From the NCBI GenBank assembly GCA_013141055.1, contig JABFRS010000001.1:1922001-1986000 (forward strand): DNA of 64,000 nt, written 5' to 3'. The notes beneath the pieces were generated by a model. The model saw only the letters and a list, made by a program, of their open reading frames with translations, searched no databases and was not told the DNA's origin. The translations under genes and the position numbers were made by a program. Position 1 is the stretch's first letter. Each line of letters starts with the position of its first letter. Positions 16,832-32,462 of the stretch are shown here, piece by piece. The stretch comes from Cyclobacteriaceae bacterium (lineage in GTDB: Bacteria > Bacteroidota > Bacteroidia > Cytophagales > Cyclobacteriaceae).

Positions 16832-17166
16832 ATGATAAGAATTATGCCACCGGAAGAATGGGCTAAAAGGAGGGGTATTTTTTATCCCCCAATTGGATAA
16901 AGGCTTATTGGGGAAACTTTTCCACGATGAAATACCAGGATCCCGATTATCAAATTCTTAATCAGGGATTTACAAAATCGGTCCATTTTGGCTAAAAAAG
17001 CACTTTCCCAACTCCCCCTAAGTAGAAACCCCTACGATCCCGGCCACTCCTGATTTTAGCATTCCAGTCTTTTCCTGATTCATGGGAGGCGCCAACCGGC
17101 CACTTTTGTTGCCTCATGTCGCCGGATCAAATCACCCCCAGCACCTGAGACTTAAAACATCAGCTT
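16832..17166. other. Intergenic region upstream of the giant adhesin
   Basis: 335 bases without a gene, divergent between the TonB-domain lipoprotein and the giant adhesin. It holds an inverted repeat CCCCAAT/ATTGGGG (16887-16893 and 16907-16913) of unknown role and, at 17046-17120, the conserved element described separately. The rest shows nothing I can name. Confidence 0.7.
17046..17120 (+). promoter_or_regulatory. Conserved upstream element, copy 1 (adhesin)
   Basis: 75 bases matching 26270-26344 at 62 positions by hand alignment, with no gap. The first 44 bases differ by one base. It contains the direct repeat TCCTGATT twice, at 17048-17055 and 17073-17080, start to start 25 bases, and a second conserved block CACTTTTGTT...CATGTC. 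It ends 46 bases before the adhesin ATG. A promoter-operator or a shared 5' leader is inferred. Confidence 0.75.
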
Positions 17167-20100
17167 ATGAAGAAACTTCGACTAACCACCGTAACCCTTC
17201 TGATCATGTTATCTGGTCTTTTCCAGACATTACATGCATCACCATTTTTACTTCCCAAGATTGGGCTTGCTACCAGCGCTGCAGCACCAGCTCTCCAGGC
17301 GGACGGAAGCTATAACATCACTTACACCTTAACGGTGAAAAATTATGGTGATGAAAAACTAACCAATGTTCAGGTAACTGATGCATTGGGTCTTGTTTTT
17401 ATAATTCCTACAACCTACTCGATGGTTGGAAATGTTGTTGCTACGGGAACGCTCATTGGTAATCCTGCCTTCAACGGCGGATTGAATTCCAATCTTCTTG
17501 CAGCAGGAAGCTTTCTGAACGTTGGTGTTCAGCAGACGATCATCTTCACAATCAATGTAGTTCCGAATTTGATTTTCGGACCATTTGCAAGCTTGCCTGT
17601 TGCCAGTGCAAACGGAACAATTCTTCCGGTGCTGGATACTTCGGTAAACGGAAACAATCCTGATCCAAATGGTGATGGAACTCCTCTTGAAACATCTGCT
17701 ACGATTGTTAACCTTAGCCCTCTGCCAGTTATTGGTGTTGCCAAAAGTGCAGCAGCTCCACAAAAACAAGCGAACGGATCATATAGCATTCCATTTACAA
17801 TCACGATCAAGAATCTTGGAAACGAGATCCTTAATAATGTTCAGGTTTCAGATAATCTTAGCTCAGTATTTATTTTTCCATCAACCTACACAGTAGGTTC
17901 TGTTGTTTCTACCGGTTCATTGGTAGCCAACGGTTCTTATAATGGTAATACAAATTCAAATCTACTGGCTGCCGGAAGCACACTTGGTTTAGGTGCTACT
18001 CAGACCATAACATTCAATGTAAACGTGGTAACGAACGGACTCTTCGGCCCTTTCTTAAACACTGCTACTGCTTCTGCAAACGGAAGCATTCTTCCCACAC
18101 TTGATCTTTCAGTTGACGGAAACAATCCTGATCCAAATGGTGATGGTATTCCATTGGAACTTTTGCCTACATCTATTTCATTAATTCCAACTCCGATCAT
18201 CGGTATTGCGAAAAGCGCGACTGCTCCACTGTTACAACCTGATGGAACAAACAATGTGACATTCACCATGACGGTCAAGAATCTTGGTAATGAGCCATTG
18301 ACTAATGTTCAGGTGACTGACAATCTTATCACTGCTTTCATAGGACCCTCTGCTTACTCAATCGTAGGCGGTGTTATCACCAGCGGAACACTTACAGCAA
18401 ATGCAGGCTTCAACGGAAATATTGCTACTAACCTTTTGAATTCTTCTACCAGCACCCTGGCGATTGGAGCAACCCAAACTATCGTATTCACCGTAAATGT
18501 TGACCCACACGGTTCCTTTGGACCATTTGCCAACATTGCCACAGCATCTGCCAATGGAAGTCTTCTTCCCACCATTGACATTTCTGTTGATGGGAATAAT
18601 CCTGATCCTAACGGAGATGGCATTCCTCTTGAAACTTCACCGACGATCGTTTCATTGCTACCCATTCCAATCATTGGTGTTGCAAAAAGTGCTTCAGTGC
18701 CTGTACTGCAACCAAATGGTTCTTACAACATTCCATTCACCATCGTTATTGAAAATCTTGGTAATGAAGTATTGAATAACGTACAGGTAACGGATAATCT
18801 CCTTTCAACATTCGCATCTCCATCCATATTCAGCATTGTTGGTCATGTGCTTACCAGCGGATCCCTTGTTTCAAACGGAGCATATGATGGAAATCTTTTC
18901 ACCAACTTACTTCAGCCTGGCAGCACTCTTGCAGTTGGAGCATCACAGACGATCACATTTACAGTGAATGTAGTTCCAAACGGTTTGTTTGGATTGATTG
19001 TTAACACCGCGATTGCATCTGCTACTGGTTCATTGCTGCCTACTTTAGATATATCAGTTGATGGAAATGATCCTGATCCAAACGGAGACGGCCTTCCGTT
19101 GGAGTTGCTTCCTACTATCGTAACATTGGTACCCGTGCCAATCATTGGTATTGCAAAAAGCGCTTCTTCACCTCAGCTTCAGCCAAATGGTTCTTACAAT
19201 GTAACTTTCACGCTTACACTTGAGAATCTTGGAAACGAAGTTCTGAGTAATGTACAGGCGACTGATGTATTGACCTCAGCTTTCATCGGACCCTCCACTT
19301 ATTCTTTAGTCGGAAATATTATTGCCAGCGGATCACTGATTGCCAATTCAAGCTTTAATGGTTTTGGAATTACAAACTTATTAGCTGCTGGAAGCACCCT
19401 TGCGGTAGGAGCCACTCAAACTGTAGTTTTCACGGTTAACGTTGAACCTCATACGGCTTTTGGGCCATTCCTGAATACAGCTATTGCAAGTGCAACCGGA
19501 AGCCTGCTTCCAACAACTGACATTTCCTATGATGGAAATGATCCTGATCCTAATGGTGACGGTCTTCCACTGGAAACATTGCCAACGATCATCAATCTTG
19601 TTCCAATGCCGATAATCGGTCTTGCAAAAAGTGCATCAGCTCCGTTAGCGCAGGTAGATGGTTCTTATAACGTCACGTATACATTCACCGTAAAGAATCT
19701 TGGAAACGAACCATTGCACAATGTTCAGGTGACTGATAACATGGCATCTGTATTTGTTGGGCCGAGCGTTTATACTATTGTTGGAAATGTTGCTGCCAGC
19801 GGAACATTAATTGCCAACGCGGGTTTTAACGGAAATCTTCTTTCTAACCTTCTTGCTCCAGGTAGCACTTTAAATGTTGGCGAAACACAAACGATCACCG
19901 TTACGGTAAATGCTGTCCCTCACGCAATCTTCGGACCTTTTGTAAACACTGCGATTGCAAGTGCTATGGGAAGTCTTTTGCCGACGATCGATCTTTCAAT
20001 GGATGGAAACAACCCTGATCCAAATGGTGACGGAATTCCTTTAGAAACCTTACCAACGATTGTTGTTTTAATTCCCGTGCCGGTGATTGGTATTGCAAAG

Positions 20101-23100
20101 AGCGCTTCCACACCGCTTCTTCAACCTGACGGATCCTATAATGTTACCTACTCATTTGTTGTAGAGAATCTAGGTAATGAAACATTGAATAATGTTCAGG
20201 TTATTGATCCTTTGGTTACAACATTCCCTTCTCCAACAGTTTACAATCTTATAGGAAATGTTGTTTCAACAGGAACATTGATTGCAAACACATTATTCAA
20301 CGGAAATGCTCTTCAAAACTTATTAGCATCAGGAAGCACGCTGAATGTTGGGGCTAGTGAAACCATCACTTTTACAGTGAACATCAAGCCGACCATATTC
20401 TTCGGACCTTTTATTAATAGTGCTGTTGCAACGGGCATGGGAAGCTTATTGCCAACCATCGATGTTTCAATGGATGGCAACAATCCTGATCCTAACGGCG
20501 ACGGTATCCCATTGGAAGTTCTTCCTACCATCATCACATTAACTCCATCACCTATCATTGGTGTTGCAAAGAATGTGATCAGCGCAATTCTGCAGCCTGA
20601 TGGCAGCTACAATGTTACTTATGGAATTATTCTTAAAAACTACGGAAACGTATCTCTTCATAACATCACGTTAATTGACAACTTAACTCAAGCTCTCGGT
20701 TTATCTGCAGGTTTTGGATTAACAGCAAGTGTTAGTACAACGGGTGGATTGACAGCTAACATCGGATTCAACGGAACTCTGGATCTTAATCTTCTTGATG
20801 GACTTAACAGTGTTCTTGGAATCGGTGAAACACAGACGATCAATTTCACAGTTAATGTAAGACCTGGTGGTCTCTTCGGTCCATATTGTAACACAGCTAT
20901 CGTAACTGCAACAGGCCCTTTGGGTCTTGGTCTAACAGTGGATGTTTCAACCAGCGGAACAAATCCTGATCCTAATGGTAACGGAAATCCTTCTGAAATT
21001 TCAGAAAGCAATTGTACCTCTCTTAACCTGACTTCAAACCCGGTTATTGGAATCGCGAAATCTGCAAGCGTACCTGTTTTGCAATCAAACGGAAGTTATA
21101 ATGTGGCATTCCTTTTCACAGTTAAGAATTTAGGAAACACTGCACTCACAAACGTGCAGGTTGTGGATGATCTGGTTGCCGCTCTTCCAGCACCTTCTAC
21201 TTATACTATTTCAGTTGCTCCTTCTGCTTCAGGAACATTGGCCGTTAACTCAGGATTCAATGGCAACAGCAACAAGAATCTTCTTGCGGCTGGAAGTACT
21301 TTAGCTACGGGTGCAACAGCAACGATTTCATTTACGGCAAATGTTCTTCCTAACGGAAGCTTCGGACCGTTCTTTAACACGGCACTTGCTTCTGCTAAAG
21401 ATGCTTTGACCACTGCTACCACAAATGATATTTCAACAGATGGTACACAACCTGATCTTAATGGAAACAATAATCCAGGAGATACAGACGAAAGTGTTCC
21501 AACTCCATTTACACTGACACCGAATGCATTGATTGGTATTGCAAAAGCTGCGAGTGCACCTGCGCTTCAGGCAAACGGAAGTTATAACATGATGTTCACC
21601 TTCACGATCCAGAATATGGGCAACGTGGCGCTGAATAATGTTCAGGTAACTGATAATCTTACAAGCGTTTTTCCTTCTCCTTCAGCGTTCAGCGTTATAG
21701 GTTCAGTGACTACTCCATTGTCGTTAATCGCAAATCCTGGATTTAACGGAAGTTCTGATATCAATCTTCTAAGCGCAGGAAGCACATTGGCCGCCGGCGC
21801 AACCGAACACATTACATTAAATATCAATGTAATGCCCAACGGAAGCTTTGGTCCATTCTTCAACACTGCTGTTGCCACTGCGACTGCATCTGGATTTGCA
21901 GTAACATCTACAGATGTTTCTACCGATGGTATTAATCCTGATCCTAACAACAATAACAATCCATCAGATGCTGGCGAAGATGTAGCTACCTCAATTTCAC
22001 TTGCTCCTAATCCTACAATTGGAGTTGCTAAATCAGTTGTTTCTTCAACTCTTCAGTCTAACGGAAGTTATGTCGTAGCTCTTTCGATCACCGTAAAAAA
22101 TCATGGAAATGTTACTCTTAACAATGTCCAGGTAACGGATGATCTTACTACAGCTTTCAGCTCACCGACTACATTTACAATCACTCAGTTGCCTAGCAGC
22201 ACAGGCGGTTTGTCACCAAATCTTTCATATAACGGAAGAACTGATATCAATCTGCTTGCTGCTGGAAACTCTTTAGCTCCTGGTGAATCACAAACGATCA
22301 CGTTCTCAACCAATGTTGTCGTGAACGGAAACTTTGGCCCTTATTATAACTCTGCGAAAGGATCTGCCACTGGCGCATCCGGTTCTGGCAACACTACTGA
22401 TATCTCTGCAAGTGGAACAAATCCTGATCCTAACGGAAACGGAAATCCTTCTGAAGCAGGTGAAAACGATGCAACAATGATCAGCCTTACTCCTAATGCT
22501 GTCATGGGTGTCGCAAAATCAGCTGGAACTCCTGTGATCTTATCGAATGGTACTTATCAGGTGACTTATACCGTTACGGTTAAGAATCTTGGTAATGCAC
22601 CTTTCACAAACTTCCAGGTAACTGACAATCTTAATAACACTTTCACAAGCCCTACAACTTATACAGTAAGCGGACCTGTAGTGGTATCCGGTTCAGCAAC
22701 TCCTAATGCTGCATTCAATGGTTCAACCAACATCAATCTTCTTTCCGGAGTGAATACTCTGCCGATTGGTGTTACTGAAACCATTACGTTCCAGGTGATC
22801 ATTGATCCACACGGAAGCTTTGGTCCTTTCAACAACAGCGCCGTAGGTACCGCTACCAGCCCTTCCGGAAATTATTCTGATGTGTCTGCTAACGGAACAA
22901 ATCCTGATCCTAATGGAAACGGAAACCCTGGAGATGCAGGCGAAGACGATGCTACTTCTATCACATTGACTCCTCAACCAGTGTTAGGTGTTGCAAAGGC
23001 TGCAAGCACTCCAATTGTTCAGGCAAACGGCTCATATCACATTACTTACACTGTGTCTTTAAAGAACATGGGTAACGTAACGTTGAATAACATTCAGTTG

Positions 23101-26100
23101 ACAGATGATTTGAATAACGCTTTCCCTTTACCAGCAACGTTCATCCTTATCGGAACAAATGTTTCAGGTCTACTGGTTGCGAATCCTTCTTATAATGGAG
23201 TAAGTGACATTAACCTGATCACTTCTGGTTCCATTGCAGTTGGCGCAACACAAACTGTAACATATACAGTCGAAGTTCAGGCGAACGGAAGCTTTGGTCC
23301 ATTCCTTAATAGTGCGATTGGAAAAGGAACCAACGGTGCAGTAACGTACACAGACATTTCTAACAGCGGAACAAATCCTGATCCAAATGGAAACGGAAAC
23401 CCTGGAGATGCCGGTGAAGATATAGCAACCTCAGTCACTTTCTCTCCTAACATGATTGCCGGAGTTGCAAAAGCTGCAAGCTTACCGATTGCGCAAGCTG
23501 ATGGTACATACAAAATTGTGTACACACTTCAGGTTGAAAACCTTGGTAACTACGCTATCAACAATATCCAGGTAAAAGATTTCTTGAGTAATGCTTACCC
23601 TGCTCCTGTGACTTTCACAGTTGCTCCTGGCAGTGCTACAACGGGAACTTTGATCATTAACCCTTCTTATAACGGAAGTACAGATGTTAATCTTCTGGCT
23701 CCTGGAAGCAAGTTGGCGATCGGTGCAAACTTCTCAATTACTTATACTGTGCTGGTTAATCTGAATGGAACTTCAGGAATGTTCTACAATCGTGCGACGG
23801 TTACATCCATCAGCGATGACACCCTGACTACCTACACAGATATCTCAAGCAATGGAACTGATCCGGATCCAAATGGAAATGGAAATCCTTCTGATGCTGG
23901 TGAAAACGACCCAACTGGCGTAAACCTTACACCACACGCAGTATTGGGTGTTGCAAAAGCAGTAAGCGTTCCACTTCAGCAAACTGATGGAAGCTTCGAT
24001 GTAACCTACTCAGTAACGGTTGAAAACCTTGGTAACATTATCCTGAATCAAGTACAGGTGACTGACAATCTTGCACAGGCTTTTCCTGCTCCTGCAACCT
24101 TTACAGTAGACCATGTTAATACGTTAAGTACACTTACTGTGAACCCTGCATTCAATGGAAAAACAGATAAGAACTTATTCGCAGCCGGAAACTCATTGAG
24201 TGTGGGTGCCTCTGCCGTTGTGAACTTTACAGTACACATTCAGGCAAATGGCAGCGCTGGAATTTTCTATAATTCAGCGACGGGTTCTGCTAATGCTAAT
24301 AATGGAGCTTTGACTACTACAGATTTGTCTGTGATTGGAAATAATCCTGATCCAAATGGAAATGGAAATCCTGGAGATGTGGGTGAAGATTCTGCAACAC
24401 CGGTAACATTGATCCTGACTCCGGTAGTAGGTATTGCAAAATCCGCTTCCGTACCATTGTTAAACATGAACGGTTCATACGATGTTACTTTTACAATTGT
24501 AGTTGAGAACTTAGGCAACACAGCACTCAGCAACATTGCAGTATACGATGACATTGCATTGGTATTACCTGTAGCAACTCCATTCACTTTGAAAAGCACA
24601 ATTGCAACAACTGGTTCACTGGTGGCAAATCCTTCTTTCAATGGAAGCACGATTGTCAACTTGCTGGTTGGAACTTCTACGCTGGCAATCGGCGGAAAAG
24701 AAACAATCAAGTTTACTGTGAACATCCCAGGACCGATCAGTGCCGGACCATATTATAACACTGCGCTGGCTTTTGCGAGCAACTCTGACAATTCACTGAC
24801 ATACGGTGATATTTCAACACAAGGTTCAGATCCTGATCCAAATGGAAATGGAAATCCTAATGACACAAATGAAAGTCAGCCAACTCCATTCCTGTTGCAA
24901 CTTGCACCGGTATTGGGTATTGCTAACAATGCTTCGACTCCAGTGCTGAAGGCAGATGGTTCTTATGACATCAACTTCACTATCACTGTACAGAACATGG
25001 GTAATGAAGATCTGACAAGTATTGATTTGTTGAATGATCTTGCTGATGCATTCCCCGCTCCTGCAGTAGTGACTATCACTTCCGCACCACAAATAATTGG
25101 TTCCCTTGTACTCAATCCTTCTTATAACGGGAAGACAAACACGGATATGATCAGTTCAGGAAAGCTGGAAGTTGGTGACACACAATGGATCTCCTTCTCC
25201 ATTAACGTAAAAGCAAACAATTCATTCGGACTCTTCCTTAGCTCAGTGGATGGAATGGCTACCGGTATGACAACTTTGCAAACCACGATGGATATTTCTG
25301 ATATGGGTATGGTGTGCGATGAAGACGGCGATGGAAATCCTTGTGGTGCAAATGAAAATGAGGCAACCCGTATTACATTAATTGCAAACGAGCTGATCGG
25401 AATCTCTAAAACAGTTTCTACTCCAATCGCACTGACCAGCTGTGATTTCGAGGTTACTTATACAATGAACATTGAGAATTTCGGAAATTCTACATTGACG
25501 ATGCTTGATGTGACGGATTCACTTCGTAAAGTGTTCCCTTTACCAGCAACCTTCTCAGTGACGAATGTAATGAGTCCGACACTGCACGTTAATGCGAACT
25601 TCAATGGTATCACTGACAGTCATTTGTTAACCGGAACAGACAATTTTGTTCCTCAGCAAAAAGCTACGGTGTCATTCACTATCATACTTTCACCTAACGG
25701 AAATTATGGTTCATTCCTTAACCTTGCGAGAGCGACTGGTACTGGCCCTGGAAATAATAAGGTTACCGATGTGTCAACAGATGGAACATCTGCTGATCCT
25801 GACCTGAACCATGACCCAAGTGAAAATGTACCGACGTCATTGACACTGGCTCCAGCGAACTTGTTCTTCCCGGATGCTTTCTCTCCTAATGGCGACGGAC
25901 AGCATGACAACTATGAAATAACACTAAGCTGTGGAGTATCAGCAAGCTTATTGATCTTCAATCGTTGGGGTGACAAGGTGTACAGCTCTGCGGACTACAA
26001 GAACGATTGGAATGGAACTTCCAGCCACGGTTCTTTCCTTGACAGACCTCTGCCTGAAGGCACTTACTACTACAACATTGAGCTTTCAAGCGGACAGAAA

Positions 26101-26130
26101 TTCACAAGCTTCGTAGTCATCAAAAGATAA
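17167..26130 (+). CDS. Giant repetitive surface adhesin secreted by the type IX system
   Basis: 2987 residues. Signal peptide about 1-24. Residues 32-2896 are 18 tandem repeats of 155-163 residues, each opening with a form of IGVAKSASxPxLQxNGSYxVTFT and holding a conserved NLGN turn; they resemble the DUF11 / TIGR01451 Ig-like repeat. Repeat starts (residue): 32, 189, 345, 503, 660, 817, 974, 1131, 1294, 1456, 1618, 1780, 1940, 2098, 2260, 2421, 2583, 2744. Each ends in an Asp/Asn/Gly-rich motif (NPDPNGDG or NPDPNGNG) resembling thrombospondin type 3 calcium loops. Residues 2899-2987 (FFPDAFSPNGDGQHDNYEI...NRWGDKVYSS) are the gliding-motility-associated, type B T9SS C-terminal domain. It should be exported by T9SS and held on the cell surface, with the downstream PorP/SprF as partner. 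Ligand unknown. Confidence 0.93.
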   Translation: MKKLRLTTVTLLIMLSGLFQTLHASPFLLPKIGLATSAAAPALQADGSYNITYTLTVKNYGDEKLTNVQVTDALGLVFIIPTTYSMVGNVVATGTLIGNPAFNGGLNSNLLAAGSFLNVGVQQTIIFTINVVPNLIFGPFASLPVASANGTILPVLDTSVNGNNPDPNGDGTPLETSATIVNLSPLPVIGVAKSAAAPQKQANGSYSIPFTITIKNLGNEILNNVQVSDNLSSVFIFPSTYTVGSVVSTGSLVANGSYNGNTNSNLLAAGSTLGLGATQTITFNVNVVTNGLFGPFLNTATASANGSILPTLDLSVDGNNPDPNGDGIPLELLPTSISLIPTPIIGIAKSATAPLLQPDGTNNVTFTMTVKNLGNEPLTNVQVTDNLITAFIGPSAYSIVGGVITSGTLTANAGFNGNIATNLLNSSTSTLAIGATQTIVFTVNVDPHGSFGPFANIATASANGSLLPTIDISVDGNNPDPNGDGIPLETSPTIVSLLPIPIIGVAKSASVPVLQPNGSYNIPFTIVIENLGNEVLNNVQVTDNLLSTFASPSIFSIVGHVLTSGSLVSNGAYDGNLFTNLLQPGSTLAVGASQTITFTVNVVPNGLFGLIVNTAIASATGSLLPTLDISVDGNDPDPNGDGLPLELLPTIVTLVPVPIIGIAKSASSPQLQPNGSYNVTFTLTLENLGNEVLSNVQATDVLTSAFIGPSTYSLVGNIIASGSLIANSSFNGFGITNLLAAGSTLAVGATQTVVFTVNVEPHTAFGPFLNTAIASATGSLLPTTDISYDGNDPDPNGDGLPLETLPTIINLVPMPIIGLAKSASAPLAQVDGSYNVTYTFTVKNLGNEPLHNVQVTDNMASVFVGPSVYTIVGNVAASGTLIANAGFNGNLLSNLLAPGSTLNVGETQTITVTVNAVPHAIFGPFVNTAIASAMGSLLPTIDLSMDGNNPDPNGDGIPLETLPTIVVLIPVPVIGIAKSASTPLLQPDGSYNVTYSFVVENLGNETLNNVQVIDPLVTTFPSPTVYNLIGNVVSTGTLIANTLFNGNALQNLLASGSTLNVGASETITFTVNIKPTIFFGPFINSAVATGMGSLLPTIDVSMDGNNPDPNGDGIPLEVLPTIITLTPSPIIGVAKNVISAILQPDGSYNVTYGIILKNYGNVSLHNITLIDNLTQALGLSAGFGLTASVSTTGGLTANIGFNGTLDLNLLDGLNSVLGIGETQTINFTVNVRPGGLFGPYCNTAIVTATGPLGLGLTVDVSTSGTNPDPNGNGNPSEISESNCTSLNLTSNPVIGIAKSASVPVLQSNGSYNVAFLFTVKNLGNTALTNVQVVDDLVAALPAPSTYTISVAPSASGTLAVNSGFNGNSNKNLLAAGSTLATGATATISFTANVLPNGSFGPFFNTALASAKDALTTATTNDISTDGTQPDLNGNNNPGDTDESVPTPFTLTPNALIGIAKAASAPALQANGSYNMMFTFTIQNMGNVALNNVQVTDNLTSVFPSPSAFSVIGSVTTPLSLIANPGFNGSSDINLLSAGSTLAAGATEHITLNINVMPNGSFGPFFNTAVATATASGFAVTSTDVSTDGINPDPNNNNNPSDAGEDVATSISLAPNPTIGVAKSVVSSTLQSNGSYVVALSITVKNHGNVTLNNVQVTDDLTTAFSSPTTFTITQLPSSTGGLSPNLSYNGRTDINLLAAGNSLAPGESQTITFSTNVVVNGNFGPYYNSAKGSATGASGSGNTTDISASGTNPDPNGNGNPSEAGENDATMISLTPNAVMGVAKSAGTPVILSNGTYQVTYTVTVKNLGNAPFTNFQVTDNLNNTFTSPTTYTVSGPVVVSGSATPNAAFNGSTNINLLSGVNTLPIGVTETITFQVIIDPHGSFGPFNNSAVGTATSPSGNYSDVSANGTNPDPNGNGNPGDAGEDDATSITLTPQPVLGVAKAASTPIVQANGSYHITYTVSLKNMGNVTLNNIQLTDDLNNAFPLPATFILIGTNVSGLLVANPSYNGVSDINLITSGSIAVGATQTVTYTVEVQANGSFGPFLNSAIGKGTNGAVTYTDISNSGTNPDPNGNGNPGDAGEDIATSVTFSPNMIAGVAKAASLPIAQADGTYKIVYTLQVENLGNYAINNIQVKDFLSNAYPAPVTFTVAPGSATTGTLIINPSYNGSTDVNLLAPGSKLAIGANFSITYTVLVNLNGTSGMFYNRATVTSISDDTLTTYTDISSNGTDPDPNGNGNPSDAGENDPTGVNLTPHAVLGVAKAVSVPLQQTDGSFDVTYSVTVENLGNIILNQVQVTDNLAQAFPAPATFTVDHVNTLSTLTVNPAFNGKTDKNLFAAGNSLSVGASAVVNFTVHIQANGSAGIFYNSATGSANANNGALTTTDLSVIGNNPDPNGNGNPGDVGEDSATPVTLILTPVVGIAKSASVPLLNMNGSYDVTFTIVVENLGNTALSNIAVYDDIALVLPVATPFTLKSTIATTGSLVANPSFNGSTIVNLLVGTSTLAIGGKETIKFTVNIPGPISAGPYYNTALAFASNSDNSLTYGDISTQGSDPDPNGNGNPNDTNESQPTPFLLQLAPVLGIANNASTPVLKADGSYDINFTITVQNMGNEDLTSIDLLNDLADAFPAPAVVTITSAPQIIGSLVLNPSYNGKTNTDMISSGKLEVGDTQWISFSINVKANNSFGLFLSSVDGMATGMTTLQTTMDISDMGMVCDEDGDGNPCGANENEATRITLIANELIGISKTVSTPIALTSCDFEVTYTMNIENFGNSTLTMLDVTDSLRKVFPLPATFSVTNVMSPTLHVNANFNGITDSHLLTGTDNFVPQQKATVSFTIILSPNGNYGSFLNLARATGTGPGNNKVTDVSTDGTSADPDLNHDPSENVPTSLTLAPANLFFPDAFSPNGDGQHDNYEITLSCGVSASLLIFNRWGDKVYSSADYKNDWNGTSSHGSFLDRPLPEGTYYYNIELSSGQKFTSFVVIKR
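17260..25860 (+). repeat. 18 tandem protein-coding repeats in the adhesin gene
   Basis: The unit is about 470-489 bp. Copies 1-7 are close to 157 residues and end in the NPDPNGDGxPLE form. Copies 8-16 are about 158-163 residues and use NPDPNGNGNP followed by an acidic tail such as GDAGEDxAT; copies 9 and 10 have degenerate versions. Copy 17 has a variant with two cysteines (VCDEDGDGNPCG) and copy 18 is shortened before the sorting domain. The divergence between copies at the DNA level argues against very recent expansion. Confidence 0.92.
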
Positions 26131-26157
26131 AGGTTCAGTCCTCCCAAACATAGATAG

Positions 26158-26191
26158 AAAGCCTCCTGAGAACTTCAGGGGGCTTTTCTTT
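26158..26191 (+). terminator. Terminator after the giant adhesin
   Basis: AAAGCCTCCTGA (26158-26169) pairs with TCAGGGGGCTTT (26175-26186) with one wobble, followed by TTTTCTTTT. It separates the adhesin transcript from porP, which then needs its own promoter, supplied by the region at 26270-26344. Confidence 0.85.
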
Positions 26192-26269
26192 TGAGGCTTA
26201 AATCGTCCAAAACAGCTCAAAATAGAGGTTCTCAACTCCCTCTCAGTGATTACCCCGATGAGACTGGTA

Positions 26270-26344
26270 ACTCCTGATTTTAGCATTCCAGTCTTTTCCT
26301 GATTTATGGGAGGTACAGGAGTGGCACTTTTGTTACGCCATGTC
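26270..26344 (+). promoter_or_regulatory. Conserved upstream element, copy 2 (porP/sprF)
   Basis: Second copy of the element at 17046-17120. TCCTGATT occurs at 26272-26279 and 26297-26304, with the same 25-base step, and the second block CACTTTTGTT starts at the same distance (12 bases after the 44-base core). It ends 62 bases before the porP ATG and lies after the adhesin terminator, as expected for a promoter region. Confidence 0.75.
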
Positions 26345-26406
26345 ACAGGTATTATTCCAGCCAGGACGTGAAAGAGGAGCTTTAAAATTTTTAAACGATA
26401 ACCTTT

Positions 26407-27327
26407 ATGAACCGGAAATTTTTACTGTCAATCATCTTTAGTGTAACCCTCCTGAATCTTTGTCAGGCGCAACAAGATCCGTTGTACTCACAGTACATGT
26501 TTAACATGCTCGGTGTTAATCCTGCTTATGCAGGGAACCGCGATGTGTTGAGCGTTACCGGATTATATCGTCTTCAATGGGTTGGCGTTCCAGGAGCACC
26601 TGTTACCCAAATGATCTCCATCGATTCACCTCTTCCAAATAAAAAAGTTGGTCTTGGCCTTCAGATCCTCAATGATGAGATCGGTATTAACAAAACTACT
26701 GGCGTGTACGGAAGCTACTCATACAAGCTTAAGTTTAATAAAGGAACATTGGCATTGGGCATACAAGGTGGATTCACCCGCTTTTATGCAAACTATCAGA
26801 CACTCCAGCTTTCAGGAAGTCAGGTAGATAATGCTTTCAATCAAACATTAGATGATTTTCAACCTAACATTGGCGCCGGTGCATTTTACAGCACTGACAG
26901 GTTTTATGTAGGATTTTCTTCTCCACACATTCTTGGTCAGGGGACATTTTATAGTGAGAGTAACGTGAGTAAAGATCTGTCACGTCAGAACGCACACTGG
27001 TTCCTCGCTTCAGGTTATGTGTTTTCAGTTTCGCCAGCGGTTGATCTGAAACCTTCCGCTCTGATAAGAATGGTTCAGGGTTCACCAATCAATGTCGATG
27101 TAAACCTGAATGCCTGGTTTTACAGAACTATCGGATTAGGCGCATCTGTAAGAAGCAGCAGCATTATTTCCTCTATGCTTGAAATACAACTTAATAATCA
27201 GTTCCGCGTCGGTTATGCATATGACTGGACATTGAGTGAGCTCAGAAATTCAGGAAGTCATGAGATCATGCTCCGATACGAATTCGGATATGAAAAGAAA
27301 AGAATGATCTCACCCCGTTTCTTCTAA
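26407..27327 (+). CDS. PorP/SprF family type IX secretion membrane protein
   Basis: 306 residues. A signal peptide (MNRKFLLSIIFSVTLLNLCQA) is followed by the family hallmark QQDPLYSQYMFNMLGVNPAYAGNRD. The rest is an alternating beta-strand pattern with aromatic ends, fitting an outer-membrane barrel. PorP/SprF proteins bind or anchor T9SS cargo with a type B C-terminal domain, and each such giant adhesin commonly has its own SprF next to it, as SprB and SprF in Flavobacterium johnsoniae. Here it directly follows the adhesin. The PorE-like gene starts 32 bases downstream, so those two are cotranscribed. Confidence 0.93.
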   Translation: MNRKFLLSIIFSVTLLNLCQAQQDPLYSQYMFNMLGVNPAYAGNRDVLSVTGLYRLQWVGVPGAPVTQMISIDSPLPNKKVGLGLQILNDEIGINKTTGVYGSYSYKLKFNKGTLALGIQGGFTRFYANYQTLQLSGSQVDNAFNQTLDDFQPNIGAGAFYSTDRFYVGFSSPHILGQGTFYSESNVSKDLSRQNAHWFLASGYVFSVSPAVDLKPSALIRMVQGSPINVDVNLNAWFYRTIGLGASVRSSSIISSMLEIQLNNQFRVGYAYDWTLSELRNSGSHEIMLRYEFGYEKKRMISPRFF

Positions 27328-27359
27328 TCACGATGATCAAAATATTTACAACAGCACCA

Positions 27360-29627
27360 ATGAAAAAGATCACATACTGCATATTGTCACTCCTCGCACT
27401 GACATTAAGCATCCAGTCCCTGAAAGCACAATCGTTCACGATGAAGGTTGCCAACAAGGATTTCGAAAACATGCGCTACATGGAAGCCATTACCTGGTAT
27501 GAGCAAATCCTTAAAAAGGATAGAAGAAACCATGAGGCAAAAGTCAAACTGGCAGAATGCTATCGCAAAATGAATGACATTAAGAATGCCATGCGCATCT
27601 ATTCTGATCTTGCACAGGATGAGAATCCTGATGCAGTAAGTGTATGGCATTATGCACAAGCGCTTGCTTCAAATGAACAATATGAGGAAGCAGCAAAATG
27701 GTATGAGAATTACGCTGTGCTGTTGCCGGATGATCCGAATGGAAAAAAATTCGCCCTGGCGATGCACAACATCAATCAATTCTATCAGGATTCTTCCAAA
27801 TATAACCTGAAGTACGCTGCCTCTATCAATACCTGGCAGTCTGAATTCGGACCTGTATATGTAAAAAACGGACTGGCTTTTCTCTCCAACCGTCAGCAGG
27901 AACATGCTATCAAACACGTTTCAGAATATGATGAATCGGCTTTTCTTGATTGGTATTTTGTTACCGACACCGCCGCCCTCTACACCGAACTAAACAAGGA
28001 GGTGGTTTCATACATTGTTAATACTGGTAAAAATGCTCATGATGCTGATACCTACACAACCAGCAATGACACAAACACTCCCGGTCATTATGGAACTGCT
28101 TTTATGTTTGACAGTGTTCGCTATCACTATGAAAAGGTTGCCAAGATCATAAGGTTTGAGGATTTGAATAAGAAATTTCATGAAGGCCCTGCCGCCGTCT
28201 TTAAAAGTGGCGACACATTAATCATGACCCGCAACAATACCTACACACTCGCAGCAAGCGGTAAAAAGGTAAGTCAGCAAGCACTTTTCATGACCTTTGT
28301 TAAGGATATGAAATTATCCAGTGAGCAGATCCTACTGCCATTTAATGCATCAAGTTATTCCAGCGGGCATCCCGCCCTTACACCTGACAACAAACAATTA
28401 TACTTTGTCTCTAACCGTCCAGGCGGAAAAGGTGGCACCGACATTTATGTTGTGGCTTTCAACAAAGGTCGCTGGTCAAAGCCTGTTAACGTTGAAGAAG
28501 TAAATACCAGTGGTGATGAAATGTTTCCTTTCATCGATGAAGCTGGTAATCTTTATTTCTCTTCTGATGGCCGTCCGGGTTTAGGTGGACTTGACATCTT
28601 CAAAGCACCAATAAAAAAAGGAAGGATAGGAGCCATCACTAATATGGGAGCTCCCTTCAATTCATCAAAGGATGATTTCAGCATCACCTGGGATAAATAT
28701 TTGAAAAGAGGATTCTTCAGTTCCAATAGAAAAAGAGGTTTTGCTGATGATGACATTTATAGCTTCCAGCAAAACTGTCAATCTGTAGTAGTGGTTGCTT
28801 ACGACTCTATTACTAATCTTCCAATGGACTCTGTAAAAGTCGTGGCTGGAGATATGGAAGCTTACACTGATCGCGATGGTCGCGCAAGTTTCTGCATGAA
28901 CCCTGGAGATAATTCATTCAAAGCAGGCAAAGAAACATATGAAGATCGTACTGTCACTTCTGATCGTCGTGAAGTGCCAATGCCTTTAAGTCCGCTTCAC
29001 TTTGAGCTGGCCGGAGTTGTGCGTAGTGAAGAAGACAAGCAGCCAATGGAAAATGTTAATGTCCGGTTGATCGACGCTTCGGGTAGCACCATTCGTGAAA
29101 TAACCACCAGCAGAAACGGTTCTTACAAATTCAAACTTGATCTCAACAGTACTTACACGGTCGTGGCGGCCAGAAAAAATTGCGGTCTCAATTCGGTAGA
29201 CTTCACTACCGTGGGATTAAAGCGCTCAAAAGTATTGAACGGAGACCTTACGATGATCTGTATTGGTGATATCATTAAGATAGAGAACATCTATTATGAT
29301 CTTAACAAGTTCAACATTCGTGCTGATGCACAGCCTGAGCTTAATAAGCTTGCTGAGTTGATGTGGAAATATCCTGATATGCGCATTGAGTTGCGTTCAC
29401 ACACTGACAGCAGATCTTCATATGATTTTAACATGAAGCTTTCCGCGAACCGTGCTGATGCTGCTGTTCAATACCTCGCATCGAAAGGAATTATCCCTTC
29501 CAGAATGCGTGCAGCAGGTTACGGAGAATCTTTGCCTGTCAATAAGTGCAGAGACGGAGTGAAATGTTCAGAAGAACAGTATCAGATGAATCGTAGAACA
29601 GAATTCAAAGTATTGTCAATACGATAA
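27360..29627 (+). CDS. PorE-like OmpA family protein (TPR, beta-propeller, OmpA)
   Basis: 755 residues. The ATG at 27360 opens a signal peptide (MKKITYCILSLLALTLSIQSLKA); the earlier in-frame start adds nine residues before it. Order: TPR-like helices (about 25-130), a WD40/PD40-type propeller with HPALTPDNKQLYFVSNRPGGKGGTDIYVV and FPFIDEAGNLYFSSDGRPGLGGLDIF, a carboxypeptidase-regulatory-like beta domain (about 475-630), and a C-terminal OmpA domain (IYYDLNKFNIRADAQPELNKLAELM ... LRSHTDSRSSYDFN) binding peptidoglycan. This layout is that of PorE of the Porphyromonas T9SS and relatives paired with PorP/SprF. It probably links a T9SS component to the cell wall. Confidence 0.9.
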   Translation: MKKITYCILSLLALTLSIQSLKAQSFTMKVANKDFENMRYMEAITWYEQILKKDRRNHEAKVKLAECYRKMNDIKNAMRIYSDLAQDENPDAVSVWHYAQALASNEQYEEAAKWYENYAVLLPDDPNGKKFALAMHNINQFYQDSSKYNLKYAASINTWQSEFGPVYVKNGLAFLSNRQQEHAIKHVSEYDESAFLDWYFVTDTAALYTELNKEVVSYIVNTGKNAHDADTYTTSNDTNTPGHYGTAFMFDSVRYHYEKVAKIIRFEDLNKKFHEGPAAVFKSGDTLIMTRNNTYTLAASGKKVSQQALFMTFVKDMKLSSEQILLPFNASSYSSGHPALTPDNKQLYFVSNRPGGKGGTDIYVVAFNKGRWSKPVNVEEVNTSGDEMFPFIDEAGNLYFSSDGRPGLGGLDIFKAPIKKGRIGAITNMGAPFNSSKDDFSITWDKYLKRGFFSSNRKRGFADDDIYSFQQNCQSVVVVAYDSITNLPMDSVKVVAGDMEAYTDRDGRASFCMNPGDNSFKAGKETYEDRTVTSDRREVPMPLSPLHFELAGVVRSEEDKQPMENVNVRLIDASGSTIREITTSRNGSYKFKLDLNSTYTVVAARKNCGLNSVDFTTVGLKRSKVLNGDLTMICIGDIIKIENIYYDLNKFNIRADAQPELNKLAELMWKYPDMRIELRSHTDSRSSYDFNMKLSANRADAAVQYLASKGIIPSRMRAAGYGESLPVNKCRDGVKCSEEQYQMNRRTEFKVLSIR

Positions 29628-31219: not shown

Positions 31220-31223
31220 GTAG

Positions 31224-31282
31224 TAGCGGGGGTAAGACTCGAACTTACGTCCGCCAGCTGGCGGATATGAGTCCAACGACTA
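31224..31282 (-). pseudogene. tRNA-fMet 3' copy, unit 1
   Basis: 59 bases matching the initiator tRNA from the D-loop TAG to the discriminator base. The T arm and acceptor 3' strand are identical to the true gene; the region after the anticodon loop is replaced by the palindrome TCCGCCAGCTGGCGGA. There is no 5' half, so it cannot fold as a full tRNA. Its first three bases are the stop codon of the GIY-YIG gene. Confidence 0.85.
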
Positions 31283-31534
31283 GTTCCTTTTTAAGAGATT
31301 AGTGTAAATAAATTCTCGCCCCTTTGCCGATTTTAATTCTCTTTCTCTTCTCATAGCATCTGATTTAGAGTCATATTCCTCCTGATGAATTATCGTCCAA
31401 GGTCTGAATTTGATAGTCCAGCCTTTCTTTGAAAATATGTTATGCGATTCAAATCGAGCCTTCAGATCAGAGGTATAACCAATATATATCTTTTGGAATT
31501 TCTCAGAGTATAGAATGTAAACGTAATATTTCAT
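31280..31534 (-). CDS. Small GIY-YIG nuclease, unit 1
   Basis: 84 residues, one minimal GIY-YIG domain of the YhbQ/UPF0213 type. The first motif reads VYI in MKYYVYILYSEK, the second is YIG in KIYIGYTSDL, followed by the catalytic Arg (LKARFESHN) and a later conserved Glu (REREL). It would be a small site-specific DNA endonuclease. The ATG at 31534 is chosen because it starts at the conserved MKYYVY; the longer in-frame form reads through a hairpin. The stop codon TAG is the first codon of the tRNA-derived sequence. Confidence 0.85.
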   Translation of the reverse strand: MKYYVYILYSEKFQKIYIGYTSDLKARFESHNIFSKKGWTIKFRPWTIIHQEEYDSKSDAMRRERELKSAKGREFIYTNLLKRN

Positions 31535-31543
31535 GAAAAAAAG

Positions 31544-31568
31544 AAAGGTCATCTTTTGGATGACCTTT
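31544..31568 (-). terminator. Hairpin before GIY-YIG gene, unit 1
   Basis: AAAGGTCATC and GATGACCTTT form a 10-bp perfect stem around a five-base loop. On the minus strand it is followed by CTTTTTTT and then the ATG of the nuclease, nine bases after the stem end. It would stop most read-through from upstream into the gene, like an attenuator. Confidence 0.75.
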
Positions 31569-31570
31569 TT

Positions 31571-31606
31571 GTTGTGATAAGGCTCGAGCTTCATGAGCCA
31601 AACGAC
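31571..31606 (-). pseudogene. Degenerate tRNA-like remnant, unit 1
   Basis: On the minus strand GTCGTTTGGCTCATGAAG then TTCGAGCCTTATCACAAC resembles the initiator tRNA anticodon region joined directly to a T-arm-like segment, with the piece between removed. It is shared by all three units. A distant tRNA origin is inferred. Confidence 0.45.
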
Positions 31607-31612
31607 TTTTTG

Positions 31613-31671
31613 TAGCGGGGGTAAGACTCGAACTTACATCCGCCAGCTGGCGGATATGAGTCCAACGACTA
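31613..31671 (-). pseudogene. tRNA-fMet 3' copy, unit 2
   Basis: Same 59-base structure as in unit 1, with one substitution next to the palindrome (ACATCC instead of ACGTCC on the plus strand). T arm and acceptor strand remain identical to the true tRNA. Confidence 0.85.
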
Positions 31672-31923
31672 GTTCCTTTTTAAGAGATTAGTGTAAATAA
31701 ATTCTCGCCCCTTTGCCGATTTTAATTCTCTTTCTCTTCTCATAGCATCTGATTTAGAGTCATATTCCTCCTGATGAATTATCGTCCAAGGTCTGAATTT
31801 GATAGTCCAGCCTTTCTTTGAAAATATGTTATGCGATTCAAATCGAGCCTTCAGATCAGAGGTATAACCAATATATATCTTTTGGAATTTCTCAGAGTAT
31901 AGAGTGTAAACGTAATATTTCAT
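31669..31923 (-). CDS. Small GIY-YIG nuclease, unit 2
   Basis: 84 residues, identical to the other two copies except codon 7, which encodes Thr (MKYYVYTLYSEK). That codon lies in the first (GIY-like) motif, usually hydrophobic at this position, so this copy may be impaired. Second motif, Arg and Glu are intact. The ATG at 31923 follows the unit hairpin; the TAG stop lies in the tRNA-derived segment. Confidence 0.85.
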   Translation of the reverse strand: MKYYVYTLYSEKFQKIYIGYTSDLKARFESHNIFSKKGWTIKFRPWTIIHQEEYDSKSDAMRRERELKSAKGREFIYTNLLKRN

Positions 31924-31931
31924 GAAAAAAG

Positions 31932-31956
31932 AAAGGTCATCTTTTGGATGACCTTT
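31932..31956 (-). terminator. Hairpin before GIY-YIG gene, unit 2
   Basis: Same stem as in unit 1 (AAAGGTCATC with GATGACCTTT), with a minus-strand T tract one base shorter, running into the ATG at 31923. Confidence 0.75.
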
Positions 31957-31958
31957 TT

Positions 31959-31994
31959 GTTGTGATAAGGCTCGAGCTTCATGAGCCAAACGAC
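31959..31994 (-). pseudogene. Degenerate tRNA-like remnant, unit 2
   Basis: Identical to the unit 1 remnant. It lies between the unit 3 tRNA 3' copy and the unit 2 hairpin. Confidence 0.45.
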
Positions 31995-32000
31995 TTTTTG

Positions 32001-32059
32001 TAGCGGGGGTAAGACTCGAACTTACGTCCGCCAGCTGGCGGATATGAGTCCAACGACTA
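32001..32059 (-). pseudogene. tRNA-fMet 3' copy, unit 3
   Basis: 59 bases, identical to the copy in unit 1. It is the copy nearest the intact tRNA gene, separated from it by the unit 3 nuclease gene. Confidence 0.85.
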
Positions 32060-32311
32060 GTTCCTTTTTAAGAGATTAGTGTAAATAAATTCTCGCCCCT
32101 TTGCCGATTTTAATTCTCTTTCTCTTCTCATAGCATCTGATTTAGAGTCATATTCCTCCTGATGAATTATCGTCCAAGGTCTGAATTTGATAGTCCAGCC
32201 TTTCTTTGAAAATATGTTATGCGATTCAAATCGAGCCTTCAGATCAGAGGTGTAACCAATATATATCTTTTGGAATTTCTCAGAGTATAGAACGTAAACG
32301 TAATATTTCAT
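32057..32311 (-). CDS. Small GIY-YIG nuclease, unit 3
   Basis: 84 residues. Codon 7 encodes Val (MKYYVYVLYSEK). All other residues match units 1 and 2; one further synonymous change is seen. It is the copy adjacent to the intact tRNA gene and would be read first on a transcript starting at the tRNA promoter, after the hairpin at 32321-32345. The ATG at 32311 starts the conserved domain. Confidence 0.85.
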   Translation of the reverse strand: MKYYVYVLYSEKFQKIYIGYTSDLKARFESHNIFSKKGWTIKFRPWTIIHQEEYDSKSDAMRRERELKSAKGREFIYTNLLKRN

Positions 32312-32320
32312 GAAAAAAAG

Positions 32321-32345
32321 AAAGGCCATCTTTTGGATGACCTTT
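32321..32345 (-). terminator. Hairpin after the tRNA and before GIY-YIG gene, unit 3
   Basis: AAAGGCCATC with GATGACCTTT: the same stem with one A-C mismatch from a substitution. On the minus strand a T tract follows. In this position it could be the natural terminator of the tRNA-fMet transcript. Confidence 0.75.
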
Positions 32346-32347
32346 TT

Positions 32348-32383
32348 GTTGTGATAAGGCTCGAACTTCATGAGCCAAACGAC
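32348..32383 (-). pseudogene. Degenerate tRNA-like remnant, unit 3
   Basis: As in units 1 and 2, with one substitution (CTCGAACTT) that makes it match the true tRNA T loop better than the other two. It starts seven bases after the intact tRNA. Confidence 0.45.
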
Positions 32384-32389
32384 TTTTTG

Positions 32390-32462
<73 letters not shown>

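Follow-up and report, generated by a model that had tools for sequence, protein, structure and literature searches.

What controls a giant surface adhesin and the outer-membrane protein encoded behind it, when the two genes carry nearly the same stretch of DNA upstream? The question arises in the window analysed here, the whole stretch of 64,000 nucleotides taken from one contig of a Cyclobacteriaceae bacterium, where copies of a 75-bp element precede both a gene for a type IX secretion system (T9SS) cargo and porP. In F. johnsoniae, the signalling pathways that fit motility and secretion to the surroundings are described as still unknown in the excerpted text of a 2021 paper (PMC7807042). The element provides a sequence handle—an operator, a box spacing, and a candidate regulator—on how gliding or adhesive Bacteroidota may build giant T9SS proteins and their anchors together.

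Two Copies of One Element

The features of the locus are given below with their coordinates in the window; the R2 profile is described in the next section.

17046..17120, + strand: element copy 1, predicted promoter-operator of the adhesin gene (62/75 identity to copy 2; R2 profile, 40.0 bits)
17048..17055, + strand: first half-site TCCTGATT of copy 1, kept in alignment A5 of the family
17061..17067, + strand: middle inverted half-site of copy 1, eroded (ATTCCAG versus consensus AAATCAG)
17075..17080, + strand: third half-site CTGATT of copy 1, overlapping the predicted -33 region
17101..17108, + strand: predicted -7 box CACTTTTG of copy 1, 21 bp after CTGAT, the fixed offset
near 17113, + strand: predicted transcript start of copy 1, with the box at -12 to -5 by analogy with F. 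psychrophilum (PMC9723704, in the part excerpted)
17167..26130, + strand: giant repeat adhesin, 2987 aa, with DUF11-type repeats and a CHU_C T9SS signal
26157..26193, + strand: likely intrinsic terminator 3' of the adhesin gene, 13-bp stem and U-rich tail
26270..26344, + strand: element copy 2, predicted promoter-operator of porP (R2 profile, 39.8 bits)
26325..26332, + strand: predicted -7 box CACTTTTG of copy 2, with a predicted transcript start near 26337
26407..27327, + strand: PorP/SprF-family outer-membrane protein, 306 aa (PF11751, 265.9 bits)
27333..29627, + strand: TPR–PD40–CarboxypepD_reg–OmpA protein, starting 5 bp behind porP

The two copies agree at 62 of 75 positions without gaps and differ at one of their first 44 bases (43/44), just as a sequence-only reading of this DNA had described them; a BLASTN alignment of the adhesin and porP upstream regions extends to 89/116 identities (E = 3e-22). 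The same reading was right about two direct repeats and a conserved block: TCCTGATT occurs twice in each copy, with starts 25 bp apart, and the CACTTTTGTT block is found in both. Its estimate that the copies end about 50–60 bases from the start codon was slightly off, the distances being 46 bases for copy 1 (ATG at 17167) and 62 bases for copy 2 (ATG at 26407). Allowing up to three mismatches, the 33-bp TCCTGATT...TCCTGATT core occurs twice in the window and never in 100 shuffles; a search of a viral collection for a 20-base core of the element found nothing. To this description we add a middle inverted half-site (AAATCAG, reading ATTCCAG in the window and eroded in both copies) and a fixed spacing to a -7-like box.

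We read the adhesin as a probable type B cargo, judging by its CHU_C domain. The hairpin behind its gene folds at -21.2 kcal/mol (z = -3.0), and a consensus promoter/terminator scan reported nothing at 26050–26450, this hairpin included; because the adhesin gene is followed by a terminator-like structure, porP probably needs its own promoter. The gene starting 5 bp behind porP is likely to share its transcript, and from its domain architecture we take its product to be PorE-like. According to the excerpted part of one source, type B cargo is anchored by PorP-like proteins, and the probable link from PorP to the cell wall is PorE (PMC9143113)—for this reason, co-expression of the three window genes makes sense. 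Elsewhere in the window (31223–32415), a 389-bp unit is repeated 3.1 times with 98% matches beside a tRNA-Met (32389–32462), and the repeat holds three minus-strand ORFs of about 105 aa at the same period.

A Family of Elements in Related Genomes

DNA similarity searches returned the two window copies and eight matches at E 0.1 or worse from the own genome, and one clear, diverged relative from 57 other genomes. This relative, in genome G006, retains TCCTGATT-N17-TCCTGATT-N20-CACnTTTG at equal spacing; a second, weak match in G050 was judged to be chance. Since similarity gave no further strong relatives, a spaced pattern and profiles were needed. With up to three mismatches, the pattern found in G006 gave 11 sites in 5 of 62 genus genomes (the own genome included), a reversed-pattern control gave none in the same 62 genomes, and a strict pattern found only the two window copies in the own genome. 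Alignment of the 11 sites exposed the AAATCAG half-site, which the pattern did not ask for. Profile R1 was built from these 11 sites and profile R2 from 49; at E <= 1e-4, R2 finds 52 sites, many of them its own training sites, in 17 of the 62 genus genomes, and a few sites also lie in other genera. By profile the own genome holds four sites, namely the two in the window and two more at 38–43 bits:

C1:2347372-2347434: site before an Hpt-like ORF and hybrid-kinase operon
C2:227211-227277: site before a 96-aa ORF

A weak, partial fifth site (15.4 bits) precedes a kinase gene near the regulator locus discussed below.

The sites are placed as promoters would be, usually about 18–75 bp before an ATG; of the 53 distinct sites examined, 40 have an ORF start within 80 bp, versus 15.9% of 6000 random positions. 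Together with a fixed offset to the promoter box (next section), this strongly supports the view, first put forward in the sequence-only reading, that the element is a shared promoter-operator. It belongs to a real and conserved family of them. Could the element instead be a structured RNA leader or riboswitch, or a recent duplication that means nothing? The window copies are far more alike than the remaining members, so that one was probably derived from the other, as a duplication would have it; the family is nevertheless conserved across genera and placed before ORFs, the only Rfam match in the window is a tRNA, and the element folds no better, at any significant level, than its shuffles on either strand. 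We regard both possibilities as highly improbable. Two strong sites (L098 3210–3278 in G031; L099 3919–3987 in G063) have no ORF of at least 85 aa starting within 330 bp downstream, and may drive small ORFs or RNAs. Among the matches listed in searches of the open-access literature, we found no description of such a motif or regulator.

Geometry of the Operator and Promoter Box

The family consensus is CTGATTT-N4/5-AAATCAG-N7-CTGATT, followed by CAnnTTTG 21 bp after the last CTGAT; this box looks like a variant of TAnnTTTG, the -7 box of Bacteroidota. Allowing one mismatch, AAATCAG is present in 34 of 49 family members and the third half-site CTGATT in 42 of 49. TTTG is conserved, and the first two box bases are CA in 37 of 49 sites and TA in none, the initial pattern having asked for CAC. 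An operator-only pattern, in which the box played no part, matched 83 times in 78 stretches from GTDB genomes. A CA/TA-nn-TTTG box (at most one mismatch) follows at offset 21 in 18 of the 83 matches; in 4 it stands at one of nine other offsets considered (19, 19, 24, and 25). All 18 offset-21 matches are Bacteroidota-type by record title. Half of these come from genus-set genomes that gave the pattern; the nine others do not, and amount to about six separate sites, as L122/L144, L138/L160, and L148/L155 are nearly identical. The rest of the operator-only matches, scattered over many phyla, look like chance. In Parachryseolinea and Dawidia (L123, L145), the operator lacks a good -7 box and is followed by a gene whose product groups, as judged by eye, with TonB-receptor-like proteins.

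The excerpted text on F. psychrophilum places the TAnnTTTG box at -12 to -5 (PMC9723704). If the box here is placed in the same way, the last half-site falls at about -38 to -33, which by analogy is the position at which a class II activator would stand in for the -33 element.

The same species suggests another reading, in which the element is a sigma-54 promoter like that of the sprB–sprF operon; remFG-sprCDBF is driven by sigma-54 and SM5 sites, according to the part of the paper excerpted (PMC9723704). Both window copies resemble such a promoter, and copy 2 reads TGGCAC-N5-TTAC. Across the family this resemblance dissolves—GG at -24 is found in 3 of 49 members and GC at -12 in 7 of 49, and CAnnTTTG is the part that is conserved—and we give the sigma-54 reading next to no weight. 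The two systems are alike in that a giant T9SS adhesin and its SprF partner are expressed together; as far as the excerpt describes it, the F. psychrophilum genes form one operon with sigma-54 and SM5 boxes, whereas here there are probably two transcripts, each with its own copy of an activator-type element (PMC9723704).

A Candidate Regulator of the NarL/FixJ Type

When the proteins encoded near the 54 sites used were clustered, one cluster of 92 proteins emerged, to which 31 sites contributed; most of its members look by eye like two-component proteins. Within it is one orthologous NarL/FixJ regulator, 48–82% identical to the first sequence of the alignment, with receiver (PF00072) and GerE (PF00196) domains in the own-genome candidate and in G331, G292, and G015. 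The own-genome gene lies outside the window:

C1:3198135-3198788: candidate regulator gene of the own genome

Orthologs score about 300–400 bits with the regulator profile; in seven genomes scanned at a loose threshold, other family members reach about 200 bits or less. In G021, which was counted as regulator-negative, a gene truncated by the end of a contig scores 167 bits. The nearest solved relatives of the profile are VraR (183.7 bits), NarL (141.9), and DesR (134.7), which by profile score are distant homologs.

The ortholog is present in 12 of the 62 genus genomes, and its distribution follows that of the element: sites occur in 11 of the 12 regulator-positive genomes versus 6 of the 50 others (p = 2.6e-7, uncorrected for relatedness). 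In a sample of 291 genomes from the order, seven have the regulator, seven have a site of at least 32 bits (a cut-off picked after a gap in the scores was seen), and five have both, so that sites occur in 5 of 7 regulator-positive versus 2 of 284 regulator-negative genomes; this sample includes G000, G020, G079, and G084, which supplied training sites. Some match at E <= 0.001 is found in 27 of the 291. Related genomes are not independent, and the co-occurrence p-values are therefore too small. Two genomes new to the models, G292 and G331, each have a site near the regulator gene.

The regulator and the element are also neighbours. Of 20 loci examined, 12 from several genera (G012, G014, G020, G023, G028, G031, G034, G068, G077, G292, UBA2366, and O. 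koreensis) have a same-strand site that begins 27–184 bp downstream of this gene. The UBA2366 and O. koreensis loci (L181 and L148, respectively), 2 of the 20, were chosen because the operator was present, and the G068 site is weak at 16.5 bits. The site of the G063 locus is divergent from the regulator gene, and in G331 the cluster runs hybrid kinase–REC–regulator–HATPase gene–site–PorP–CHU_C protein. The G310 locus, like that of G068, has weak sites only, and there is no site within 1.5 kb of the regulator in G084 or G343. Beside the own-genome regulator gene there is no strong site, the nearest being the 15.4-bit partial site about 8 kb away. With adjacency in these 12 loci and coinciding presence, the orthologous NarL/FixJ response regulator is the best candidate, and on sequence grounds the element is most likely its target.

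A second way to read these data keeps the promoter family and changes the protein: the binder would be another regulator—a LytTR protein, a CRP-like protein, or a NarL-type paralog—and the NarL regulator a mere neighbour. Five genomes (G006, G027, G064, G072, and G079) have sites and neither a full nor a truncated ortholog that we could find, and most of them are fragmented, but G079 is rated 100% complete. In G015, the ortholog looks intact in translation and there is no site at E <= 1e-4, only 14-bit matches nearby. LytTR genes stand directly under the element in G072 and G068, although this link is confined to the two genomes, and in G101, a member of a different family in the order, a site is found 52 bp behind another NarL-type regulator, one with 28% identity to that of the own genome (L246 3005–3768). 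Such a binder would have to be squared with one orthologous regulator adjoining the site across several genera, and we think it unlikely, while giving it more weight than any other alternative considered here.

Target Genes and a Proposed Regulon

The T9SS targets in the window, a CHU_C cargo and porP, have counterparts elsewhere. G072 has the order site–CHU_C cargo–PorP and a separate site–PorP; G331, from another genus, has site–PorP–CHU_C protein; and a large Big/PKD-domain surface protein is encoded 271 bp behind its site in G063. Non-T9SS targets include PD40 proteins, a GT4 glycosyltransferase, histidine kinases, receivers, Hpt-like and LytTR proteins, and small ORFs, with probable outer-membrane barrels that have no Pfam match as further targets. 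The element does not mark T9SS machinery.

These targets divide what the sequence-only reading had proposed, a T9SS regulator, possibly of the PorX or ECF sigma type, coordinating a giant cargo with its anchor. Two other species, G072 and G331, again have a cargo and a PorP together under the element, and co-control of cargo and anchor is thus likely, through a regulator other than PorX/SigP. In the own genome, however, 8 of the 9 PorP/SprF genes have no element directly upstream; with many targets elsewhere that are not T9SS genes, the element lies partly at places unrelated to T9SS, an outcome that the sequence-only reading had named as one that would refute it. A PorX/SigP-type (ECF) regulon would fit a cargo and a porP that both carry the element, and the SigP protein of Porphyromonas gingivalis binds DNA upstream of porP, as an excerpt of the source has it (PMC4800418). 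Against it, besides the porP genes lacking the element, a PglZ protein, our proxy for PorX, is found in 59 of the 62 genus genomes versus 17 of 62 for the element, and the SigP motif, short and degenerate in the published excerpt, shows no resemblance to the element when compared by eye (PMC4800418). We consider this regulon very improbable. PorXY–SigP resembles the system proposed here in that two-component control touches porP, in the excerpts of both sources (PMC4800418, PMC11320123); in contrast, PorX carries an effector domain of the PglZ type and acts together with an ECF sigma factor, whereas our candidate carries a DNA-binding domain of the GerE type, goes with a different motif, and is patchily distributed.

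The account that we favour, and consider probable, is that the copies are activator-dependent promoters run by the NarL/FixJ-type regulator, which would co-switch a T9SS cargo and a PorP–PorE-like anchor under a relay that feeds back on itself. In response to a presumed signal, the regulator (REC plus GerE) would be phosphorylated via a multi-kinase relay and would bind the three CTGATT-type half-sites, the last of which overlaps the -33 region; it would then recruit RNA polymerase to a -7 box that is weak because it reads CAnnTTTG in place of TAnnTTTG. The regulon in the own genome would comprise the giant T9SS cargo, the PorP–PorE-like anchor operon, the Hpt-like/hybrid-kinase operon, and a small ORF, possibly with the kinase near the regulator gene; cargo and anchor would be switched on together, and the relay would feed back on its own parts. 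More tentatively, and with some doubt, we suggest that the element defines a regulon for surface adhesion in Cyclobacteriaceae-like bacteria. Its kinase relay would end in a dedicated NarL-type regulator (rather than PorXY–SigP or sigma-54) that switches on whole type B cargo–PorP–PorE modules, and CAnnTTTG would keep the promoters silent when the regulator is missing. These ideas are testable in Ohtaekwangia koreensis DSM 25262, which has two sites and a regulator ortholog (L148).

Systems of this kind are known. What appears to be new is the present member, together with its geometry and its connection to T9SS cargo–anchor modules. In Bordetella, fhaB encodes a giant adhesin whose secretion partner is co-controlled. 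At the fhaB promoter BvgA, a NarL homologue, binds an inverted-heptad primary site and more sites up to the -35 region, as an excerpt describes it (PMC7250471), and in this the two systems are alike; they differ in DNA motif, promoter type, and secretion system, and no membership by sequence is claimed.

Two observations concern individual targets. The small Hpt-like ORF under the element, for which there is no Pfam match and "Hpt-like" is our own reading, has an asparagine in the own genome (L247 17013–17351) in place of the "CHK" histidine seen in the ORFs of L102 and L144, from G006 and UBA5867. A tandem repeat at L091 (G072:C307) comprises the gene of a probable outer-membrane protein together with its element, in two near-identical copies and a shorter, related third.
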